Assembly (NCBI GenBank): GCA_029940475.1
Contig: JAPYUT010000003.1
Coordinates: 1-64,000, forward strand
Origin: Verrucomicrobiales bacterium
GTDB taxonomy: Bacteria; Verrucomicrobiota; Verrucomicrobiia; Verrucomicrobiales; DEV007
Direction: 5' to 3'
DNA length: 64,000 bases
Position 1 is the stretch's first letter; each line of letters starts with the position of its first letter. The translations under genes and the position numbers were made by a program. The notes beneath the pieces were generated by a model. It searched no databases. It was given only the letters and a program-made list of their open reading frames with translations, and was not told the DNA's origin. This document shows positions 25,094-37,336 of the stretch, in pieces.

Positions 25094-26260
25094 TTAATCA
25101 GTATTGTTTTCGAGTATGAAATGCAGGTGGGGGGTATACAAATTCGGTTCGAGCAAAAAAGAGTCATGCCCTTTTTCTGAATGCACGGTAATGCGGGTGG
25201 GGGCTATGCCGCCCTGAGCTATTGCGGCGGCAAGATCCTCCTGTTGATCGGGATAATAACAGACATCGGAGTCGATCGTAAAGATCAGGTAATGTTGATG
25301 TTTGCAGCGTGCGAACATTGCAGCGTAATCCTTGAAGCCCGCCTCGCCCAGCAGGTCGAAGCTTTGCCATGCATCCATGATACGCAGGTAGGTGTTGGCA
25401 TCGAAGCGGCGCACAAATTTCTGGCCCTGGTGAAGCATGTAAGACTCGATCGGGGTGCGTAGCGCGTACCAGGAATTATCCTTCTCGATTCCGCCCTGCA
25501 CAATTTTTCTTGCCCGGCGCTCAAGTGTGTTGAGTGAAATGAATGCCTTGTGTCCGATCATCCGGGCCAGTGCAAGCCCGCGTTCCGGGGTCTTGCCCTC
25601 GTAGTAGTTTCCGCCCTTGAAATTACCATCCGCTTCAATCGCCGAGATCTGTTCAAGGTTGTGGATCCTCTGCAGTAATGAGGTGGCGATCCCGCTGGCG
25701 AGTGCCACCACTTTATCGACGCGTTCAGGGTAACGGGTGGCCAGGCTGAGTCCCATCATTCCCCCCAGCGAACTGCCAACGACGGCATGCAGTTTGTTGA
25801 TTTCAAGATGGTCGAGGAGCTTGATCTGTGAATCAACGATATCGCTGATGGCAACACGCGGGAACGATGATCCGTAGGGTTTTCCGGTCGCCGGGTTTTC
25901 AGAACTTGGCCCGGTTGAGCCATAGCAGCCCCCGAGATAGTTTACGCATATGACACAAAATTTTTCGGTGTCGAGTGCCTTGCCCGGTCCCACGAAGCCG
26001 TCCCACCAGCCAGCCTGGCATTCCTTGTCCCACTGGACGGTGAGCCCGGGAACACTTCCGGTATGGCCGGCGGCGTGCTGGCTCGCGCTGAGGGCATGAA
26101 AGAGCAGGATCACGTTGTCGTGCTCCTTGGAGAGATCGCCATACATCTCGTAGGCCAGGGTAAAATCCTCAAGGATCTCACCACAGCGCAGCACAAGCGG
26201 CGAGGCCGCGTCTGTGAAGTGGAAAAACTGAGTTTTTGTCTGGCCGATGCTTCCGATCAT
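25094..26260 (-). CDS. metX: Homoserine O-acetyltransferase (MetX family)
   Basis: A 388-residue alpha/beta-hydrolase-fold acyltransferase. The nucleophile elbow is VVGSSLGGMMGL; GSTGPSSENPATGKPYGSSFP is the family-specific block (shown here in pieces: GSTGPSS and YGSSFP); the C-terminal His is in EKGHDSFLL. It transfers an acyl group from acyl-CoA to homoserine for methionine synthesis. Whether acetyl- or succinyl-CoA is used cannot be read by eye. The upstream divergent gene is a methyltransferase, but not an evident MetW. Confidence 0.92.
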   Translation of the reverse strand: MIGSIGQTKTQFFHFTDAASPLVLRCGEILEDFTLAYEMYGDLSKEHDNVILLFHALSASQHAAGHTGSVPGLTVQWDKECQAGWWDGFVGPGKALDTEKFCVICVNYLGGCYGSTGPSSENPATGKPYGSSFPRVAISDIVDSQIKLLDHLEINKLHAVVGSSLGGMMGLSLATRYPERVDKVVALASGIATSLLQRIHNLEQISAIEADGNFKGGNYYEGKTPERGLALARMIGHKAFISLNTLERRARKIVQGGIEKDNSWYALRTPIESYMLHQGQKFVRRFDANTYLRIMDAWQSFDLLGEAGFKDYAAMFARCKHQHYLIFTIDSDVCYYPDQQEDLAAAIAQGGIAPTRITVHSEKGHDSFLLEPNLYTPHLHFILENNTD

Positions 26261-26324: not shown

Positions 26325-27092
26325 ATGTCTTATAAGGATTATAACGGGCTTGAAGCAGAATTGTATGATGTGTTGCGCGGGGGCGATGAAATGGATGAAA
26401 TAGGATTTTATAGCAATGTGGCGTCCGAAAAAGGCGGGACCTGCCTTGATGTGGGTTGCGGCACGGGACGTGTCCTGATTCCTCTGGCTCAGCAGGGAAT
26501 TGATATCATGGGCCTGGATTCATCGCAGGTCATGGTTGAGCAGTGTCGTTCCAGGGTCTTGGCGGCAGGCTTATCAGCAGAAATCGTGAGGGATGACATG
26601 AGAAATTTTGATCTCGGTAGACAATTTAACCTGGTGATTGTCCCGGGCGCCTCTTTCCAGCTTCTCGATGCGCGCGCGGATGCCAGGGCATCCCTGGAGC
26701 GTATGCGCGCTCATTTATTGCCGGGAGGTCTGTTGCTGATGAGTCTTTTTACACCATACTACGAGATTGTTAACGAGTCACTGGATGGGGTCTGGAGACT
26801 GGAGAAAGACGAGCCGTTTGGCGATGAGGGACAGCGGGCATTGTGTCATGTTTGCTCTGACCTTGACCGCTGTGAACAACTCATGGAGACGAGGCATCGA
26901 TTTGAAGTTATTGATGGCGGTGGCGCTACTCTTAACTCGGAGATGAAGCTTTCCCGGCTGCGCTGGTACGGAAAATATGAGCTGGATCTTTTACTGGCAG
27001 CTGTCGGGTTTGGCTCGGTGGAGATGCTCGGGAATTTCGGGGACTATGAAGCCGGTGACGGAGATACCGCAGTGGCTGTTTTTGCAACATGA
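26325..27092 (+). CDS. Class I SAM-dependent methyltransferase
   Basis: Start ATG at 26325 (MSYKDYNGLEAELYDVL) is chosen since the preceding codons from 26298 lack similarity; GGGCAGG lies just upstream. Motif I is CLDVGCGTGRVLIPLA, motif II IMGLDSS, motif III DMRNFDL, and GGLLLMSLF follows. The 255-residue protein is otherwise generic. It lies immediately before the ferritin-like/ATP-grasp gene, with TGATATG at the junction (stop, one base, ATG), so the two are almost certainly co-translated and functionally linked. Substrate is unknown. Confidence 0.85.
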   Translation: MSYKDYNGLEAELYDVLRGGDEMDEIGFYSNVASEKGGTCLDVGCGTGRVLIPLAQQGIDIMGLDSSQVMVEQCRSRVLAAGLSAEIVRDDMRNFDLGRQFNLVIVPGASFQLLDARADARASLERMRAHLLPGGLLLMSLFTPYYEIVNESLDGVWRLEKDEPFGDEGQRALCHVCSDLDRCEQLMETRHRFEVIDGGGATLNSEMKLSRLRWYGKYELDLLLAAVGFGSVEMLGNFGDYEAGDGDTAVAVFAT

Positions 27093-27093
27093 T

Positions 27094-29046
27094 ATGACGC
27101 TGCTTTTATCGAGGATAAATAGACCAGTGATGATGCAGTTGCAGGTAAAAGAGGTCGCCGAGCGGGTGCTGTTTGCTTCCTCACTGGAGGAAAAGCTTCG
27201 ACCTGCCCGGGGCCGGGTAATCGATGATAATACAGGAGCCGCCATTATAGTCCCAGATGCCCCAGGACGTCCGGACGGTTTGCATATTAGTCCGAAAGGG
27301 ATACGTGCGGGCTTTCCGGGTATTCACCGTATTGATCAAGAGCATGAGCGCGGTATTTTACTGCACTTTCTGGCCAACCATGAATTGCTTGCCGCGGAAC
27401 TGATGGCCCTGGTCTTGCTCAGGTTTCCTGAGGCGCCGCATGAATACCGCGCCGGTGTTTATCGAGCAATGCGTGAAGAGCAGATTCACACGCGGCTTTA
27501 TTTGCGGCGCATGCGGGAATGCGGTGTTGAGTTCGGGGAATTACCACTGAACAATTATTTCTGGCGGCTGATTGCCCCGGTGGAGTCACTAATGGACTTT
27601 GTGACGCGCCTGAACCTGACCTTTGAGCAGGCAAACCTTGATTTTTCCCGGCATTACGCCGCGCTTTTCCGTGAAGCCGGTGATCCGGCCACAGCCACTA
27701 TACTGGAGAAAATTTATCGCGACGAGATTGGTCATGTAGGGCATGGGGTCAAGTGGTTCCGGCGCTGGAAAAGTGGCGAGGATAGCGATTGGCAGGCTTT
27801 TGGTAAACAACTGACTTTTCCGCTTAACCCTGCAAAGGCCAAGGGGCTTGCACCCTTTAATAAGGAAGGTCGTCGCCTGGCCGGGCTGGACGATGACTTC
27901 ATCAGCAACCTTGAAATTTGTGCGCAGTCGCGCGGCAGGACCCCGGTCGTGCATTGGTTTAATCCGAATGCGGAGTTGCATGCCATGAGAGTGGCCGCCG
28001 GATCACATTTTGAGATGAATAAATTCCAGCATGCACTGGAGCATGACCTGGAGATGCTGATGATCTCCTGGAGCCGTCGCGACGACATGGTCATCATGCG
28101 CAAACCACCTTCCAGGGATCATCTTTTGTATTTGCGTGAGGCAGGCCTGCAGATGCCCGAGATAATCGGGGTGGGGGAACCTGACAATCGCAAACTGGGC
28201 GGCCTGCGTCCGTGGGCATGGTCGCCTGACGCTGTTGAGTTCCTGAAGCCATATGCGGCAAGGGTTTCGGAAAAGGTTGATTGGCAATGGCGCGATGACC
28301 TGCCGGCGCAATGGCTGTCAAAGGAGATTGGGTTGCGCCTGGAGAAATTGTTGGATGTGGGGGACAGGCGGGCCGTCGTATGCAGGGATGTGGAATCTGC
28401 CGTTGCCGTGGCGAGGGAGGCCACCATGCTTTTCAAGGCGGCTTATTCCTGCGCCGGGCGCGGGCATCGACGAAGCGACGGCAATGAAGATGAACTGCGC
28501 AGCTGGCTGGGGAGCATTATTGCAAGTCACGGCTGCGTTATTGCTGAGCCGTGGCTTGAAAGGGTGATGGATTTTTCCGCCCTCTATGAGATGAAGGCAG
28601 GACAGGTGGACCTGGTGGGGATGACCCGGATAGAGAATGATGCGGCGGGGAGGTTCCGGGGCATCAGTGTTGCGCCGAGGTGGAGCAAGTTGCTTGGGGA
28701 GGAGGTTGCGCAGTTCCTGTTTGCCCAGGAGCAGGTCATGCAGTGGTATGGAGAGAAAATCCCGGAGGCACTGGCCGGGCTGTTGCCGGGGTATGCCGGT
28801 CCGCTTGGGGTTGATGCAATGGTTTACCGGAGCACGGCCGGGGCACTTGCCCTCAGGCATGTTGTTGAGCTTAATGTGCGCATGACAATGGGGCGGGTTG
28901 CCCTTGAGTTGCAGAGCAAGCTGGCACCGGCAGGGTGGGGTGCGTTTCGGGTATTGCGCAAGACTGATACGGTGAAGGAGGGATCGATCATTCTTAATGA
29001 CCCGCAACATGCCAGCGAGTTCCTGGCTGTCTGGGAATATGGCTAG
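27094..29046 (+). CDS. DUF455 ferritin-like domain fused to ATP-grasp-like domain
   Basis: From the ATG at 27094 (alternatives 27130/27133) the protein has 650 residues. Residues about 15-300 resemble DUF455, a MiaE-related ferritin-like fold; di-metal ligands are visible in QEHERGILLH and ANHELLAAEL (about 83-98), EEQIHTRLY (about 128) and DEIGHVGHG (about 210). Residues about 370-645 look like a divergent ATP-grasp ligase: FKAAYSCAGRGHRR (about 447), GVDAMVYRS and the metal-binding VELNVRMTMG (about 591). The fusion suggests an oxygen- or metal-dependent step followed by ATP-dependent carboxylate-amine ligation. It is coupled to the upstream methyltransferase. Function is not known. Confidence 0.78.
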   Translation: MTLLLSRINRPVMMQLQVKEVAERVLFASSLEEKLRPARGRVIDDNTGAAIIVPDAPGRPDGLHISPKGIRAGFPGIHRIDQEHERGILLHFLANHELLAAELMALVLLRFPEAPHEYRAGVYRAMREEQIHTRLYLRRMRECGVEFGELPLNNYFWRLIAPVESLMDFVTRLNLTFEQANLDFSRHYAALFREAGDPATATILEKIYRDEIGHVGHGVKWFRRWKSGEDSDWQAFGKQLTFPLNPAKAKGLAPFNKEGRRLAGLDDDFISNLEICAQSRGRTPVVHWFNPNAELHAMRVAAGSHFEMNKFQHALEHDLEMLMISWSRRDDMVIMRKPPSRDHLLYLREAGLQMPEIIGVGEPDNRKLGGLRPWAWSPDAVEFLKPYAARVSEKVDWQWRDDLPAQWLSKEIGLRLEKLLDVGDRRAVVCRDVESAVAVAREATMLFKAAYSCAGRGHRRSDGNEDELRSWLGSIIASHGCVIAEPWLERVMDFSALYEMKAGQVDLVGMTRIENDAAGRFRGISVAPRWSKLLGEEVAQFLFAQEQVMQWYGEKIPEALAGLLPGYAGPLGVDAMVYRSTAGALALRHVVELNVRMTMGRVALELQSKLAPAGWGAFRVLRKTDTVKEGSIILNDPQHASEFLAVWEYG

Positions 29047-29069: not shown

Positions 29070-32000
29070 TCAGGGAAGCTCGACTGCCCGCACACGGAAA
29101 TACATATCACGCAGTTCTGGGGGATTATTCAGCACCTCACTCTGGTAAACCCGGGTGCTTGTGCCATCCCCGTTGGGGGTCGTGCTCAAGAGGGTGAGCT
29201 GTTCGTCGGATTTACTCCAGTTGCGCAGTGTGTCGGAGAACTCAACCATGGCGAGAAAACCTGCGACTTGATCCCTGAGAGTCAATGTAAGCTGCAGCCG
29301 ATACGCTCCATCGGCACCGATTGTCGAGATTTCCAGCGAACGGCTAGAACCCGGGTTGCGCGGGTCTGTTCCCAGAAGGTATTCCAGGATATTTGCTGCA
29401 CCATCATGGTCAGCATCAGCAAGAGGACCGGATATGCCGGGGTTGGCGATCTCGGCGGGAGAGAAGAAAAGTGTACGCCAGTCGAAGGGCTCTGAGTCGT
29501 CAATGCCCGGGCTGCCTCCTGTATCGGGGGAAAGTTCCCAGTTGAGCGGCTCGCCTCCGTATCCTGCCGGCAGGAGGCGTTGCAGTGAGAACCCGCTACC
29601 GTCTGCAGCGACTGGCCAGGGTGCGCCATCATCGTAATCAGCAATATCCACCGAGACATGGAGCTCGGGTTCGCCGGCGACATCGCTGGACTCGGGGACC
29701 TTGATACGGATTTTCTCACCACCATTGTCGAGCCGTCCGGGGTAGGGGCCAAAGATTGATACCCCCTGCGGCACCCCGTGCTCTGTCCTGAACTCGGTCG
29801 GGTCTCCACCAATGAGCAGCACCAGTGCGCCGGCTTCAAGATCAGGCGTATCAGGGGCAAAGATGAATCCGCTACCGCTTACCTCGACGCCGGCAAGGGG
29901 CAAGGCGGCGGCGGAGATATTCTTGATTTCAATGAATTCGGTTCCGCCGGCAGCCGGGTTGTACATTAATTCCGAGATCACCAGCGGTCCTGTGAGCGGG
30001 GCGGCGTTTAATCCGCCGAGGGTTTCCGCCGACATCGGCACGTGATGGATCTCGCCTGTTGAAATGACGTGCCTGCCAAAAGACACCCCGGAGGAGGCAT
30101 CACCGAAACTGAAGCCGGCCACGTAGTCCAGAGGCTCGCCTGCTGAGGTTGCGGCTACCAGGAATACTTCCTCGCCGAATGAATCAAGGGCAAATCCCGT
30201 GAATTCACCTTCATCGAAGGTCAGATACCCGCCCGCTGTGATCACGGTGTCCTCCGGGATGCGGAATTTTCCAGGTTGACTGAGATTATCAGTGAGAAAC
30301 CACCCGGACAGGTCCACCGGCGATACGTTCGGGTTGTGTAATTCAATGACATCAAGTTGCGGGATGACTGAATTTGTCAGCACTTCGTTGACGAAGATGT
30401 CGGGCAGCTCTGCAGGTGTTGGTTCAGCAGTTCCGGGTGACCCGAGCACGCTACGGCTGCTGCGCCAGCCGGCATCTTCGGCAACGAGGGATTGCCCGTT
30501 TTTCGCGATATCCTCAGAGTAGGAAAAGCTTTGGATTACACTGCCGTTGGCTGCCGACAGGGTTAGTGTTTCCCCGTTGTTGTCGAGTGCTCCAGTGTAG
30601 ACCCCGGCAATGAGGGCGTTTCGGGTGGTGCCGTAAAGCTGCTCAAAGGCGGCAAGGTTGCGGACTATGAGGACACGTTCCCCAGGGGTCAAGCTGCGGC
30701 CTGTAAAGCTAAATTCAATGCCTTCGGTAAAGGAAGTATTGGTGAGCGAGATGGTGTCATTGGAGATATTCTGCAGCTCAATCCATTCGAAGTCACCGTC
30801 TTCTGTGAGGCCGTCACCGAGGTCGTAGGGGTCATGCATGATCTCGACAATCGCCAGCTTCCCGGCACTCGCGCGAGTCTCATTGACGAGGTATTCCGCC
30901 TGTATCGGTGCGCTCCATCCGGTGCCCACAGGAGTTTGGCCGGAGCCTGTAGAATTACCGCCACCACTGTCAAAAACGCGGGCGAACAAGCGCGAGGTTG
31001 CGCTGAGGGTGATGGCACCGGTGTATTCAATGCCGCCTGCGCCACCCTCCCCGGCATCCTCGTCGAAGCCGGCAACAAGCTTTACCTGGTTAAGAAAATC
31101 ACTACTCGTGGTGCTCTCGTTGAGGGCGTGGATGGCGAGAAGGTTCTCGCCGGGTTGCAGGAGGTTGAAGAAGTTACTGGCCTCGAAATTCTGGAAGGTG
31201 GTCGCGATGCCATCATCGGTTGTCTGGGTCGCCGAAGAATTCCAGCTTACATTTGCAGGAGCGAGATCGGCAGCGATTTGTGTGCCGTTAAGATAGGCGA
31301 CGAAGCCGTCATCACAGCGAGCCTGCAGTGTCATGAAGTTCCAGCCGTCGAGCTCGTTGCCGTTGACATTGAATTTAATGCGCACATAACAGGAGGTACG
31401 TCCCGCCATTTGTGTGTCGACATCGATATTGATGTAGGGCTCATAACCGCTACTGCGCTCGTAGCCGATGCCGTTGCGGCCTGATAACCAGCTGCTGTCG
31501 TTGAAATCAGGATCCGTACGCCATTGGGAACCGATGTCGGAGCCCGGGACAAGGGCGCGTACCGAGGCTGATTCGCCGACAAGGGTTGTACCCTCAATGG
31601 TTCCGGACTCGGTTGCCGGCCGCGGATCACGGCCATCAAGGGTATAATAGATCTTCTGGCCGGCCCCGAGCGGGGCACTCAGGGTAACCGTGGTTCCGGA
31701 CGGGTAGATGCCGGAAGTGCGGTTGGTGGCCGGGCGCGGCGCGAATCTGCTGTCTATCCAGTTCAGGCGGGTTGCCAGCCAGTCCTTGAGGTGATTTACC
31801 TCACCCTGGTAGCTGCCGAAACGCGGCTGGTCGGACCAGCGCTGGAAATTGCGCACCTGCGACTCGTTGAGCTCGGCAGCCATGTCGTCGATGATCGCGT
31901 GGATGTTGGCAGTGGCAAAGGCCCCGTCACGCAGCTCAAAGTAGCGGTCGATGTAGGCCTGCCAGAAATTCTCGTCATCGAAGAGCGTTACCCACCAGGG

Positions 32001-34271
32001 GTAGGTGAAATAATTGGTGCCTCCGGACCATGTGGAGGGATTGTCGTCGCGTCCATCGGTGGATTCCATTGAGCGGTCGAAGTCCCAGATCGGGCCGAAT
32101 TCGATCTTGCCCTGTCGTGTCTTGAAAAAATAGGTCGAGAGCCGCAGGGCGTCGGCGTTGAGTGACAGGACGTTGAGCAGGTGGTGATCGACCCAGGAGC
32201 CGACATCAATATAGTCGCTGTATTGAGGAGTACTTAGCGATGCATTCATTGAGTTAATGTAATTGCGTATCCAGTCAGATTGCGCGGATGTGACATCGTC
32301 TTCCTTCGGGTAAACCCAGCCGAGCGTCCTGCCGCCGGCGGAGATCCCGGAGTCACCCGGGTCGAGGCGGTCGATCTTCAGCATGTAGCCGCCGGTGATA
32401 CCCGGTTCCTCGTTCAGGCTTTGGGGTAATCGCTCGACGTCGACACGCTCCTTGTCGCGTGAGATTTTTTCCATGAAGGTGTAGACCCCGTCGTAGTCGT
32501 TGCTGTAGTTGAGGTCTCCCCCGTTATCATCCTTGAACAACTCGACAAACCTGGTGCGCGTGGCGTAGCGGCCGACCTGGTTACTGAGTTCATAGATAAA
32601 GGCGTTGCGCATCAGTGATCGGTCGTAGCGGGACCGTGCATTGAGAATCCAGTCAGATTCCTCGGGCAGGCCCAGTGGAGCGATGTTCTTGTTCTTGTTG
32701 AACTCGTCCCAGGCCTCGATGGAGAAGGCTTTCTTTGGGAATCCGGAGGATGATGAGCCGCGTACCTTCCAGCCGCCGCGGGTGCCGAGATCATAGGGGC
32801 GGTTCAATGTTGTGCGCCCGCTGGCGGGATCGGGCTCGAAGAAGGCGAAGAAGGTGAAGGCCTTGCCGTTGGATGCGCTCGCCCCGCCACTGAAACGCTC
32901 CATAATGACAACGGGGATATCGGAGCTGAATGACTGCGCGTTGCTTGATAGCCGGATGTAGCCCTCCTCACCCACCGGACCGGGAGTGAGTCCGTTTTCA
33001 AAGGCTCGTGCGCGCACGAGCGTGGAGGATGAGATACTGATGCCACCGCCGTTGAACAAGGTGGAGCTTGCCGTGGGGACATCGCCGTTGGTGGTGTAGC
33101 GAATCTGCGCAGCCGGCGACGGGGTGGCAAGATTTACAGAGAGAGAGCCGGTAAAGCCGCGCCCGGTCTCGGAGAAAGTGACGCCTCCGGAGGGGAGCCC
33201 CTGCTCAGTGCCGTTGGCACTCCCCGGGCTGGACGCCTGAAAATATCCGGGACTACCGAGTTCACCGGGATCAGAGACGAATTGCGCTTCCAGTCTCGGC
33301 AGGGCGAGCAAATCCGAACTGGTGGTATCGCCGTTCATTGCATGAATGCCAAGCAGGTTATTGCCGGCATTGAGCAGGTTGGCCGCCTGCGCGCTTAAAT
33401 CAGTATCCACAAAGGCGGTGGCCTGCCCGTCGGGGTGATCCGTCGATGCATCGGAATTCCATGTTGGGTTCGCGGGCTTGTTACCGGAGGCGATCTCGCT
33501 GCCGTTGAGGTAGGCGACGAACCCGTCGTCGTATTTCATGCGAAAGGTGAGGCCGGCGATGCCATCCAGTGAATCCAGGCTGAATGGGATTCGGATATAA
33601 ACAGTGGAATTAATATCGTAGGTTTCGGCTTCAACGTCTCCACCGGGGCCAATAAGGTTCTGGTAACCGCTGGAGCGTTCGTAGCCGATACCGGTTGTGG
33701 CATCTTCCCAGGCACTGTCGTTAAATTCAAGATTGCCCCAAGCTGTGCCGATATCTGCAGTGGGAACCAGCAACTTGCAGGCATCCCCCTCGCGCACCAG
33801 TACGCTCGTGGTGTTGCCGCCGGTTTGAGTGAGGCCATAGGAGATGTCATCAAGTTGCTCGGGATAATCAGTAAATCCGGAGATCACGCTCTGGCTGTCC
33901 GGGTCGATCAGTGCAAGGTAGCCTCCGGGTTCTTTGGGTAAGCGGAAATTGGTATGAAGTTCACCGACGTTGCGATCCTTGTTCGAGGCGAAGACAATAA
34001 GGTATCCGCCGGCCGGCAATGTGACCTCGGGGAACTGCCACTTGTCGAGTTCTCCGGGATCGTCGGTGAGATAATAGCCGTTGAGATCTACAGGGTTCGG
34101 ATCCGGGTTGTGGATCTCGATCCAATCCGGGGAGTCGGAGTCTTCATCGTAAATGGCCGAGTCGTTGGAAGCCATGAACTCTGTGATCAGTGGCGCGGCA
34201 TTCAGCGTGAGCGACGTGAACAGTGAGAGGCAAAGGGCGGGTAAGGGGAAATACTGGAGGAATGAGGGCAT
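29070..34271 (-). CDS. Giant secreted CotH kinase/lamin-tail protein
   Basis: A 1733-residue exported protein (signal peptide ends near LTLNAA). Domains in order: lamin-tail (LITEFMASNDS, WIEIHNPDP) at about 25-130; jelly roll with IGYERSSGYQNLIG at about 170-330; chitobiase-like (IRYTTNGDVPTASS) at about 370-430; a CotH kinase-like domain at about 450-830 with FGPIWDFDRSMEST; a second chitobiase-like segment and a second jelly roll with IGYERSSGYEPYIN; then three or so lamin-tail repeats (AIVEIMHDPYD, VNEVLTNSV, ISELMYNPAA). The C-terminus has DADHDGAANILEYLLGTDP. CotH domains can phosphorylate proteins. It is last in the three-sulfatase run. Confidence 0.88.
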   Translation of the reverse strand: MPSFLQYFPLPALCLSLFTSLTLNAAPLITEFMASNDSAIYDEDSDSPDWIEIHNPDPNPVDLNGYYLTDDPGELDKWQFPEVTLPAGGYLIVFASNKDRNVGELHTNFRLPKEPGGYLALIDPDSQSVISGFTDYPEQLDDISYGLTQTGGNTTSVLVREGDACKLLVPTADIGTAWGNLEFNDSAWEDATTGIGYERSSGYQNLIGPGGDVEAETYDINSTVYIRIPFSLDSLDGIAGLTFRMKYDDGFVAYLNGSEIASGNKPANPTWNSDASTDHPDGQATAFVDTDLSAQAANLLNAGNNLLGIHAMNGDTTSSDLLALPRLEAQFVSDPGELGSPGYFQASSPGSANGTEQGLPSGGVTFSETGRGFTGSLSVNLATPSPAAQIRYTTNGDVPTASSTLFNGGGISISSSTLVRARAFENGLTPGPVGEEGYIRLSSNAQSFSSDIPVVIMERFSGGASASNGKAFTFFAFFEPDPASGRTTLNRPYDLGTRGGWKVRGSSSSGFPKKAFSIEAWDEFNKNKNIAPLGLPEESDWILNARSRYDRSLMRNAFIYELSNQVGRYATRTRFVELFKDDNGGDLNYSNDYDGVYTFMEKISRDKERVDVERLPQSLNEEPGITGGYMLKIDRLDPGDSGISAGGRTLGWVYPKEDDVTSAQSDWIRNYINSMNASLSTPQYSDYIDVGSWVDHHLLNVLSLNADALRLSTYFFKTRQGKIEFGPIWDFDRSMESTDGRDDNPSTWSGGTNYFTYPWWVTLFDDENFWQAYIDRYFELRDGAFATANIHAIIDDMAAELNESQVRNFQRWSDQPRFGSYQGEVNHLKDWLATRLNWIDSRFAPRPATNRTSGIYPSGTTVTLSAPLGAGQKIYYTLDGRDPRPATESGTIEGTTLVGESASVRALVPGSDIGSQWRTDPDFNDSSWLSGRNGIGYERSSGYEPYINIDVDTQMAGRTSCYVRIKFNVNGNELDGWNFMTLQARCDDGFVAYLNGTQIAADLAPANVSWNSSATQTTDDGIATTFQNFEASNFFNLLQPGENLLAIHALNESTTSSDFLNQVKLVAGFDEDAGEGGAGGIEYTGAITLSATSRLFARVFDSGGGNSTGSGQTPVGTGWSAPIQAEYLVNETRASAGKLAIVEIMHDPYDLGDGLTEDGDFEWIELQNISNDTISLTNTSFTEGIEFSFTGRSLTPGERVLIVRNLAAFEQLYGTTRNALIAGVYTGALDNNGETLTLSAANGSVIQSFSYSEDIAKNGQSLVAEDAGWRSSRSVLGSPGTAEPTPAELPDIFVNEVLTNSVIPQLDVIELHNPNVSPVDLSGWFLTDNLSQPGKFRIPEDTVITAGGYLTFDEGEFTGFALDSFGEEVFLVAATSAGEPLDYVAGFSFGDASSGVSFGRHVISTGEIHHVPMSAETLGGLNAAPLTGPLVISELMYNPAAGGTEFIEIKNISAAALPLAGVEVSGSGFIFAPDTPDLEAGALVLLIGGDPTEFRTEHGVPQGVSIFGPYPGRLDNGGEKIRIKVPESSDVAGEPELHVSVDIADYDDGAPWPVAADGSGFSLQRLLPAGYGGEPLNWELSPDTGGSPGIDDSEPFDWRTLFFSPAEIANPGISGPLADADHDGAANILEYLLGTDPRNPGSSRSLEISTIGADGAYRLQLTLTLRDQVAGFLAMVEFSDTLRNWSKSDEQLTLLSTTPNGDGTSTRVYQSEVLNNPPELRDMYFRVRAVELP

Positions 34272-34366: not shown

Positions 34367-35806
34367 TTATTTTTTTCTCCGTGGAGTCCAGATTGGATCA
34401 ATCATCCCGGCATTCTCGGTTTTCCACAACTCGATCAACTCTTCAGTCCGGGATGTCATTGTGACGGCGAGATCATTGGTTTCCCCAATATCCTCCTTCA
34501 GGTTATACAGGCTCCAGGATTTGCTGCGCTGGCGGAGAATCTTCCAGTCCCCTTTGCGCAGGGCATGACGATCACCAATACGCCAGAATAGATGACGGTG
34601 TGGAGCTTCATCTGATTTCCCGGTGAGAAAGGGCAGGAGATTGATGCCGTCATATTTTTTCTTTTGCGGTTTAGTGCCAGCAGCCGCACAGGCGGTGGGG
34701 AACAGGTCAAGAGTGCTTACCGGGTTTGAGTAGACTGAAGTGGCAGGAATGACCCCCGGCCAGCGCATCAGGAAGGGCACACGCAATCCGCCTTCGTAGA
34801 CCTGTCCCTTCTCGCCGCGAAGTGGAGCATTGCTGGATGTAAGTTCGCGGGTCGGTCCCCCGTTGTCGGAAAAAAACACAACCAGAGTGTTGTCTTGCAG
34901 GCCGGTGTCCTTGATTTTTTTCAGCACCGCGCCCACCGAGTCATCGAGGTTTGCCAGCATGGCGGCGAAAATGCGCCGGTGGATGTCCTCGATATGTGCG
35001 AATTTTTCCATATACCTCTCAGCCCCCTGCAGTGGGCTGTGCACGGCGTTATAGGACAGGTAGAGAAAGAACGGACGATCCTTGTTGCGATCGACAAAAT
35101 TTACCGCCTCGCGGGTTAGGGCATCGGTTAAAAACTCTTTTTCCTCAACGGGTTGTCCCGCGCGTAAAATCGGGTTATCAGCATCGTAATCCGGTTCATT
35201 GCTTCCCATGTGCGCGGTATAGATGGTTTCCCCGTCCTTTGAGATCCATCGCCCTTTTGACAGGCCGTTGGGCAGGGTGCGGCGGCGCAGCATTGTCGTC
35301 ACTTCCCGGTAAGGAGGCGGGACATAGTAGTGACCCTCGTGAAGGAAACCGTAAAACGTGTCAAAGCCGCGCCGTTGAGGATGGTACTTGGCCGTGCCCC
35401 CGAGATGCCACTTGCCAATGAGGGCAGTGGTGTAACCGGCGGCGCCCAGTTGGTCGCTCAGGGTGCGCTCGGTTACCGGCAGGCCGGCATCAGGATCCTC
35501 GTTATGCGCCCCGGTTGGATTGAATTCATAACCGAAGCGTGCCTGATAGCGTCCTGTCATGAAGCCGGCACGCGATGCACTGCAGAAGGGCGCGGTGACA
35601 TAGGCATCGGTGAAGCGTACGCCTTCGCGCGCGATTGAATCGATGTGCGGTGTCGGGATATCGGTGTTTCCCTGACAGCCAAGTTCCGCAAAGCCGAGGT
35701 CATCGGCAACGAGCAGCACGATGTTCGGGCGGGCACTGAGCATTGACCCTGAGGTGAGCAGGAACAATAACAGCAAAGAGGCCCGGACAGCTGACAGGAA
35801 GAGCAT
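34367..35806 (-). CDS. Secreted sulfatase (arylsulfatase/GALNS-like)
   Basis: This 479-residue sulfatase has a signal peptide (LLLLFLLTSGSMLSA), metal-binding VADDLGF, and the formylglycine motif CSASR in PFCSASRAGFMTGRY (about residue 76), the C-x-A-S-R variant. Downstream motifs GKWHLGG, FFLYLSYNAVHSPLQ and FFSDNGGPT supply other active-site residues. The sequence is nearest, by eye, to arylsulfatase/N-acetylgalactosamine-6-sulfatase types acting on sulfated glycans. It lies 57 bases after sulfatase 35864-37336 and 95 bases before the CotH gene on the same strand, which suggests an operon. Confidence 0.92.
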   Translation of the reverse strand: MLFLSAVRASLLLLFLLTSGSMLSARPNIVLLVADDLGFAELGCQGNTDIPTPHIDSIAREGVRFTDAYVTAPFCSASRAGFMTGRYQARFGYEFNPTGAHNEDPDAGLPVTERTLSDQLGAAGYTTALIGKWHLGGTAKYHPQRRGFDTFYGFLHEGHYYVPPPYREVTTMLRRRTLPNGLSKGRWISKDGETIYTAHMGSNEPDYDADNPILRAGQPVEEKEFLTDALTREAVNFVDRNKDRPFFLYLSYNAVHSPLQGAERYMEKFAHIEDIHRRIFAAMLANLDDSVGAVLKKIKDTGLQDNTLVVFFSDNGGPTRELTSSNAPLRGEKGQVYEGGLRVPFLMRWPGVIPATSVYSNPVSTLDLFPTACAAAGTKPQKKKYDGINLLPFLTGKSDEAPHRHLFWRIGDRHALRKGDWKILRQRSKSWSLYNLKEDIGETNDLAVTMTSRTEELIELWKTENAGMIDPIWTPRRKK

Positions 35807-35863
35807 TTTGCTAAAGGTACGAATTAAATAATCCTTTGTAAACCGCTTGATGGCAGGGGGTCC

Positions 35864-37336
35864 CTAGATTTCCGGGACCGGGTCGCTGGGCTTTACCGGC
35901 TTTCCCTCCCAGGTCACCGCTCCTGTTTCCGCGTCGTAAGTAAGGATACGGGCGCGGCTTCCCGGGGCCGGCTTGCGGTTATTTTCCGGGATCCACTTGC
36001 GGTGTTCAGCAATGACTGACTGGTATTCGGCACTGCCGGCGAGGTTGGTCCACTCATTGGGGTCTTTTTCCATGTTGTAGAGTTCCTCACTGCCATCGGC
36101 GTAGCGGATGTAGCGCCATTTTTCGGAGCGCACCCCGTTGTTATCGTGGTTGTGGCAGGTGATTGCCGGGCGCCTGCGCTTGGCTTCGGCATTTTTGAGT
36201 TGTGGCATCAGGCTGATGCCTTCAAGGCCCTGCTTGGCCGGAAGGCCACAGAGCGCGTTGAGGGAGGGATAGATGTCCAGCAGCTCCGCGGGTTGATTGC
36301 AGCGTCCCGTGCCAATTCCCGGGCCGGCGAAGATCAGCGGCACGCGGGTGCCGTCATCCCACAGGGTATTCTTGCCGGTGATTTCTTTTTCACCGATGTG
36401 CCAGCCGTGATCGGACCACAACACGACGATGGTGTTATCGGCAAACCCGTTGCGTTCAAGCGCCTCCAGCACCCGGCCAACCTGGGCATCGACAAAGCTG
36501 GTGCAGGCCAGGTAGGAACGGGTAAGGTTTTTCCATTCATTGTTTTCTTCCAGAAATTTCAGGCGAACCTCAGGCAAACTCCAGTGCATGTACCATGAAA
36601 ATCGTGGAGTATCCTTGCGGTCATTGCGACGGATCTCGGGCAGCTTGAGGGTTTCCTCGGGATAGAGATCAAACCATTTTTGGGTGGCGAAGCAGGGCAC
36701 GTGCGGCAGGAAGAAACCCGCCGACAGGAAGAACGGCCCTTCAGGCTTGGCGTCGAGTTGTTCCACCGCCCAGCTTGCGATCTTGTAGTCGCCCTTATCC
36801 TCGTCCCTGTGCGGGAAGGTTCCCCAGTCAACCAGCCTGTGTGGTTGCGGCGTATTCTTGACAAGTCGCTCTTTTGGGAAGGGCGCGCCGGTAGCCCCGG
36901 GTCCAATGACATCGAATTCCTGGTTTTTTTCTCGGTTTCTACCGTATCTTCCATGGTAGATCTTGCCGGCTGAAAGGGTCTTGTAACCGTGTGATTTCAG
37001 GTATTGCGGCAGGGTGAGCAGATCCTTGAACTCAGGTACATCGCGGAACCAGGGGGCAAGGCCGTAGATGCCGGTGGTGGTCGGGCGCAGGCCGGTCATC
37101 AGGCTGGTACGTGAGGGGTTGCACAGCGGTGACTGGCAGTGGGCGTTGAGGAATACCGTGCCGCGCGCGGCAAGCCTGTCGATATTCGGGGTCTTTATTT
37201 GCGGGTGCCCACCAAGGCATCCGATCCAGTCATTCTGGTCATCGATCGCGATGAAAAGGATGTTCGGCTTCGTTTTTGCCGTCGCCGATGAGGATACCAG
37301 CGTGGCGAGAAGGGCAATTTTCAGCAGGGATGTCAT
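35864..37336 (-). CDS. Secreted sulfatase (iduronate-2-sulfatase-like)
   Basis: A 490-residue exported sulfatase. Key motifs are FIAIDDQNDWIGCLGGHP, the modified-Cys motif CNPSR in PLCNPSRTSLMTGLRP, GKIYHG and LWSDHGWHIGEKEI. The DDQNDW and LMTGLRPTTTGIY features are those of iduronate-2-sulfatase-like enzymes, which in PVC bacteria attack sulfated algal or host glycans. Its ATG overlaps the stop of the upstream sulfatase gene by four bases (ATGA at 37333-37336), showing translational coupling. Confidence 0.92.
   Translation of the reverse strand: MTSLLKIALLATLVSSSATAKTKPNILFIAIDDQNDWIGCLGGHPQIKTPNIDRLAARGTVFLNAHCQSPLCNPSRTSLMTGLRPTTTGIYGLAPWFRDVPEFKDLLTLPQYLKSHGYKTLSAGKIYHGRYGRNREKNQEFDVIGPGATGAPFPKERLVKNTPQPHRLVDWGTFPHRDEDKGDYKIASWAVEQLDAKPEGPFFLSAGFFLPHVPCFATQKWFDLYPEETLKLPEIRRNDRKDTPRFSWYMHWSLPEVRLKFLEENNEWKNLTRSYLACTSFVDAQVGRVLEALERNGFADNTIVVLWSDHGWHIGEKEITGKNTLWDDGTRVPLIFAGPGIGTGRCNQPAELLDIYPSLNALCGLPAKQGLEGISLMPQLKNAEAKRRRPAITCHNHDNNGVRSEKWRYIRYADGSEELYNMEKDPNEWTNLAGSAEYQSVIAEHRKWIPENNRKPAPGSRARILTYDAETGAVTWEGKPVKPSDPVPEI

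Follow-up and report, generated by a model that had tools for sequence, protein, structure and literature searches.

A conserved fusion of DUF455 and ATP-grasp domains in Verrucomicrobiota and its local methyltransferase neighbour

Among the proteins closest to the one analysed here are the DUF455 family (Pfam PF04305, COG2833) of the ferritin-like superfamily and the ATP-grasp peptide ligases, such as those of the pheganomycin PGM1 type, 8ynd and S. aureus SAOUHSC_02373 (7r8p). Ferritin-like sites serve also as ferroxidases or peroxidases, and the products of ATP-grasp domains include thioesters, esters and phosphates as well. The published ATP-grasp template comprises a linker Lys, a strand Lys, a strand-1 Arg, an acidic residue and an ExN motif (PMC4431377). 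Our search of the open-licence literature returned no description of the function of DUF455/COG2833 and no paper on a DUF455-ATP-grasp (ferritin-like-ATP-grasp) fusion, and two ATP-grasp surveys within that literature make no mention of ferritin. Nor did it return a pathway that combines these activities with a methyltransferase, in agreement with an earlier note on this DNA whose author knew of none.

We analysed a stretch of 64,000 nucleotides from a Verrucomicrobiales bacterium, referred to as the window, in which a DUF455 domain and an ATP-grasp domain are joined in one gene. What is new here is the domain architecture, which is built from known superfamilies. The window protein has the same domain and the same six candidate ligands as standalone members of the DUF455 family and differs from them in being fused to an ATP-grasp module. 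The carboxylate-histidine ligand pattern is also like that of bacterioferritin and RNR R2, although the similarity is weak and there is no evidence of a cage or heme. With the peptide ligases of the PGM1 type, 8ynd and 7r8p the C-terminal part has in common the fold, consisting of a pre-ATP-grasp and a catalytic module, and the Lys/Lys/Asp/ExN template. However, the identity to these ligases is only 12-19%, no Pfam or NCBIfam ATP-grasp model matches the fusion, and the fusion has a putative N-terminal di-metal domain and no biosynthetic cluster.

The gene pair and its two-domain product

Both genes that the earlier note had delimited were recovered at the positions it gave (Table 1). Its description of the second gene as a di-metal domain joined to an ATP-grasp domain was supported by the PF04305 match, the ATP-grasp fold, the intact active-site residues and a conservation that extends beyond the window. 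This gene is a single open reading frame with two domains and invariant catalytic residues; it lies on the same strand as the methyltransferase gene, and the genome from which the window comes yielded one copy when searched.

Table 1. Coordinates of the gene pair, the domains of the fusion and the divergent neighbour in the window.
Feature	Position	Strand	Basis or remark
Class I SAM-dependent methyltransferase gene, 255 aa	26325..27092	+	Pfam Methyltransf_25, E=1.7e-17
DUF455-ATP-grasp fusion gene	27130..29046	+	ORF readable from 27094; likely true start 27130
DUF455 ferritin-like di-metal domain (putative)	27238..27903	+	PF04305; ligand invariance
Pre-ATP-grasp and ATP-grasp domain	27919..29043	+	Foldseek; profile match to 7r8p; residue tally
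MetX-like alpha/beta hydrolase, divergent neighbour	25094..26260	-	Abhydrolase_1; synteny

The stop codon of the methyltransferase gene (27090-27092) is followed by a T and then by an ATG at 27094 (TGATATG), from which all residue numbers of the fusion protein are counted. The earlier note had taken this motif as a coupling of the two genes. The motif is indeed present in the DNA, but a functional start at 27094 did not stand up to comparison: the aligned relatives of the fusion protein start at residue 13-16, and in the nearest relative, from the same genus (L137), the sole in-frame ATG after the methyltransferase stop corresponds in the alignment to Met13 of the window protein. For these two reasons the gene probably starts at 27130, judging from the sequence alignments, which leaves a gap of 37 bp after the methyltransferase stop. 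A true 1-bp gap occurs only in some relatives of genus g214 (L140-L142), so that part of the clade does have tightly packed genes but exact coupling is not common to it.

The DUF455 model matched residues 49-270 with 161 bits (E=4.9e-47), compared to a curated cut-off of 34.3. The candidate ligand set consists of four Glu and two His in the pattern E..ExxH..E..ExxH, and none of the six residues (E97, E129, H132, E178, E211 and H214) varies among the 53 aligned full-length fusions. The DUF455 profile aligned weakly with RNR R2 (best E 0.013), with the ExxH motifs in register (E..ExxH..DExxH), and it also matched an R2-like oxidase and bacterioferritins. The structure models of this domain had a mean pLDDT of 52-55. 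The isolated domain (pLDDT 55, low confidence) was modelled as helical and its Foldseek matches were to ferritin and bacterioferritin, at E 0.03 or worse; none of the Foldseek matches of these models fell below E 0.001. As the profile matches are weak and the fold matches come from a low-confidence model, the assignment of a di-metal site rests on the residue pattern, from which we predict that the domain holds such a site. A profile search with the MiaE model gave no match in the fusion protein.

In the C-terminal part, residues 285-650 had no match among the Pfam and NCBIfam models, and PDB sequence searches with the single protein and with the full alignment gave weak matches only. A PreAtp-grasp match was encountered in one relative, at a sub-threshold score. 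From residue 411 onwards the AlphaFold blocks mostly have pLDDT values of 70-90. The best PDB matches of this domain in Foldseek were ATP-grasp peptide ligases (E down to 4e-9), with biotin carboxylases, GAR synthetase and SAOUHSC_02373 also ranking high, and the family profile aligned with 7r8p along the nucleotide-binding part (E=3e-4). The counterparts of the template residues are K410 (linker), K448 (strand), R490 (strand 1), D574 (acidic) and E592-L-N594; K448, R490, D574 and the ExN motif sit in modelled strands that match the template positions (PMC4431377). K410, K448, D574, E592, N594 and R596 are invariant in all 53 aligned full-length fusions, while position 490 is Arg in 52 of them and Lys in one. 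The stretch VELNVRMTMG, which had been read earlier as ATP-grasp-like, contains the ExN motif, and the metal ligands of the ATP-grasp site are kept rather than lost among the relatives. Taken together, sequence and model identify the C-terminal domain as an ATP-grasp domain. We also considered the R2K ATP-grasp clade (CDC123), which is marked by the absence of the linker Lys and is ruled out by the invariant K410.

Distribution of the fusion and of its single domains

The fusion was found in 22 of the 388 sampled genomes of the phylum and in 56 of the 59 genomes of the window's own family; it is real and old. A sensitive ATP-grasp profile searched against 241 genomes of the phylum gave 11 matches, all in ORFs of at least 648 aa, and thus none is a standalone domain among those Verrucomicrobiota genomes. 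The single domains occur elsewhere, DUF455 alone in Alphaproteobacteria and the ATP-grasp domain alone in Bacteroidales. Standalone alphaproteobacterial DUF455 proteins have the same six ligand residues, and in two of the four records examined the gene adjoins a peroxiredoxin gene. The standalone Bacteroidales homologues, L149:6992-8197 (Parabacteroides) and L150:7001-8104 (Prevotella), are annotated as hypothetical or not at all and have no significant Pfam family. They are homologous to the C-terminal 365 residues of the fusion at 19-23% identity and keep K448, D574, E592, N594 and R596, but they have no DUF455 domain and Lys410 is replaced by Arg. Pfam has no separate family for the ATP-grasp half that the fusion shares with Bacteroidales. 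The DUF455 profile found no relative among viral contigs, and phage records contained none.

Weak DUF455 matches were also seen in other Verrucomicrobiota, in frames of ~445-550 aa that include L058 and L060-L065 at ~450 aa. We set them aside as relatives of the fusion; the two that we read, L058 and L066, resemble other helical proteins and show no sign of ATP-grasp. The frames in L058 and L060-L065 are possibly a related helical oxidase family.

The methyltransferase and the gene neighbourhood

The best NCBIfam model for the methyltransferase was the daptide methyltransferase, with 98.4 bits against a cut-off of 175, and we rejected an identity as a daptide RiPP methyltransferase on this score. 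Most of its solved relatives methylate small molecules or peptides, and several are sugar N,N-dimethyltransferases. We found an ortholog in 17 of the 59 family genomes, a count that includes one 43% homologue and one fragment, and a clear ortholog is absent from 39 of the 56 fusion-bearing genomes of the family. In 14 of these 56 the gene adjoins the fusion within ~50 bp. On the tree the pair-bearing genomes fall in one supported clade of 14 rows, which also holds G398; there, as in G394, methyltransferase and fusion are on separate contigs. In G392 a DNA methyltransferase with an NPPY motif and the gene following it stand between them (L135:447-2917), and by their sequences these are probably a restriction-modification pair. 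At 21 loci sampled outside the family, two of which are short contigs, no methyltransferase homologue was found within ~8 kb of the fusion. The earlier note had described a unit of three enzymes. As a general description this fails because the methyltransferase adjoins the fusion in one subclade only, is split from it in G392 and is on a separate contig in G398 and G394; the three activities are largely apart, with adjacency in the 14 family genomes and none at the 21 loci sampled outside the family. The methyltransferase is a local neighbour only, in one small lineage.

Synteny in the pair-bearing genomes mostly extends to a wider block that includes MetX-like, YchF-like and NIF3 genes. The divergent neighbour in the window, which from its sequence would be homoserine O-acetyltransferase-like (MetX-like), belongs to the block that is conserved with the pair. 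Across the sample, 98 genes lying close to a fusion gene were diverse, and no Pfam family occurred among them more than three times. With no recurrent neighbour family the fusion looks like an autonomous gene, and in most genomes its context is that of an orphan.

On the other side of the fusion gene, and converging on it, the window encodes a 1733-aa protein (29070-34271, minus strand) with a CotH kinase, four Lamin Tail Domain stretches and Fn3-associated/CHB_HEX domains; the gene is kept in several relatives. Two tandem sulfatase genes (34367-37336, minus strand) lie downstream of it.

Possible function of the fusion

We see about an even chance that the fusion works as a bifunctional enzyme in its own right, one that couples a di-metal oxidation to an ATP-dependent ligation; what makes a two-step enzyme probable is that every catalytic residue is kept across the phylum in one joined gene. 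In such an enzyme the four Glu and two His of the N-terminal helical bundle would bind two metals, either two iron or Mn/Fe, and this di-metal site would activate O2 or peroxide to oxidise the substrate. With Mg-ATP the ATP-grasp domain would activate a carboxylate as its acyl phosphate, which it would then join to an amine. Both domains would act in sequence on one small molecule or peptide, a shared substrate being suggested by the fact that they are fused. We infer the metal identity, the O2 chemistry, the amide product and the shared substrate of this scheme. The low confidence of the DUF455 models and the other activities of ferritin-like sites and ATP-grasp domains speak against it. The adjacent methyltransferase may be an accessory particular to its lineage or a passenger with no relation to the fusion. 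More tentatively, with rather less than an even chance in our estimation, the fusion represents an undescribed enzyme class that carries out successive oxidation and amide formation in one chain; its target would be a metabolite or peptide widespread in Verrucomicrobiota, which the methyltransferase would optionally tailor in one lineage.

The pathway proposed in the earlier note would unite the methyltransferase and the two domains as three activities of one modification route, later lost or dispersed in other lineages. The tight same-strand adjacency in 14 genomes, which belong to three genera with 53-78% protein identity, is consistent with this, as is L139, in which the MetX-like gene, the methyltransferase and the fusion stay together though the outer genes differ. 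Since the wider block is syntenic in most of the 14 genomes, the adjacency may simply be inherited order. Together with the lack of a clear ortholog in 39 fusion-bearing family genomes, the 21 outside loci with no nearby methyltransferase, the confinement of the pair to one clade and the probable restriction-modification pair that separates the genes in G392, this leads us to regard such a pathway as unlikely. It also seems doubtful to us that the DUF455 domain is a protective ferroxidase or peroxidase, similar to bacterioferritin or rubrerythrin, with an ATP-grasp domain that makes a metabolite unrelated to the oxidation. Its best fold matches, ferritin and bacterioferritin, point in this direction, albeit from a low-confidence model and with none below E 0.001, and in Sphingomonas and Sinorhizobium the standalone gene comes after one for a peroxiredoxin. 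However, the peroxiredoxin link is absent in Thioclava and Azospirillum, the 98 close neighbours at fusion loci include no recurrent redox partner, and a covalent fusion would be more economical for coupled chemistry.

A role in RNA modification, where the ferritin-like domain would act as a hydroxylase like the tRNA hydroxylase MiaE, we consider very improbable. RlmN lies directly upstream of the fusion in L032 (10021-11151) and L033 (6916-7995), which belong to another verrucomicrobial genus, and L034 has it nearby; L033 also carries an RsuA-like gene downstream, and L126 has MiaA in the vicinity. These links are each confined to single genera and are too lineage-limited to be given more than little weight, housekeeping neighbours being expected by chance; moreover, the MiaE model does not match and ATP-grasp enzymes that act on RNA are rare. 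The conserved covalent link of DUF455 to ATP-grasp is a strong hint to the chemistry that DUF455 may join, and the fusion offers a single-gene target for metabolomics or structural work.
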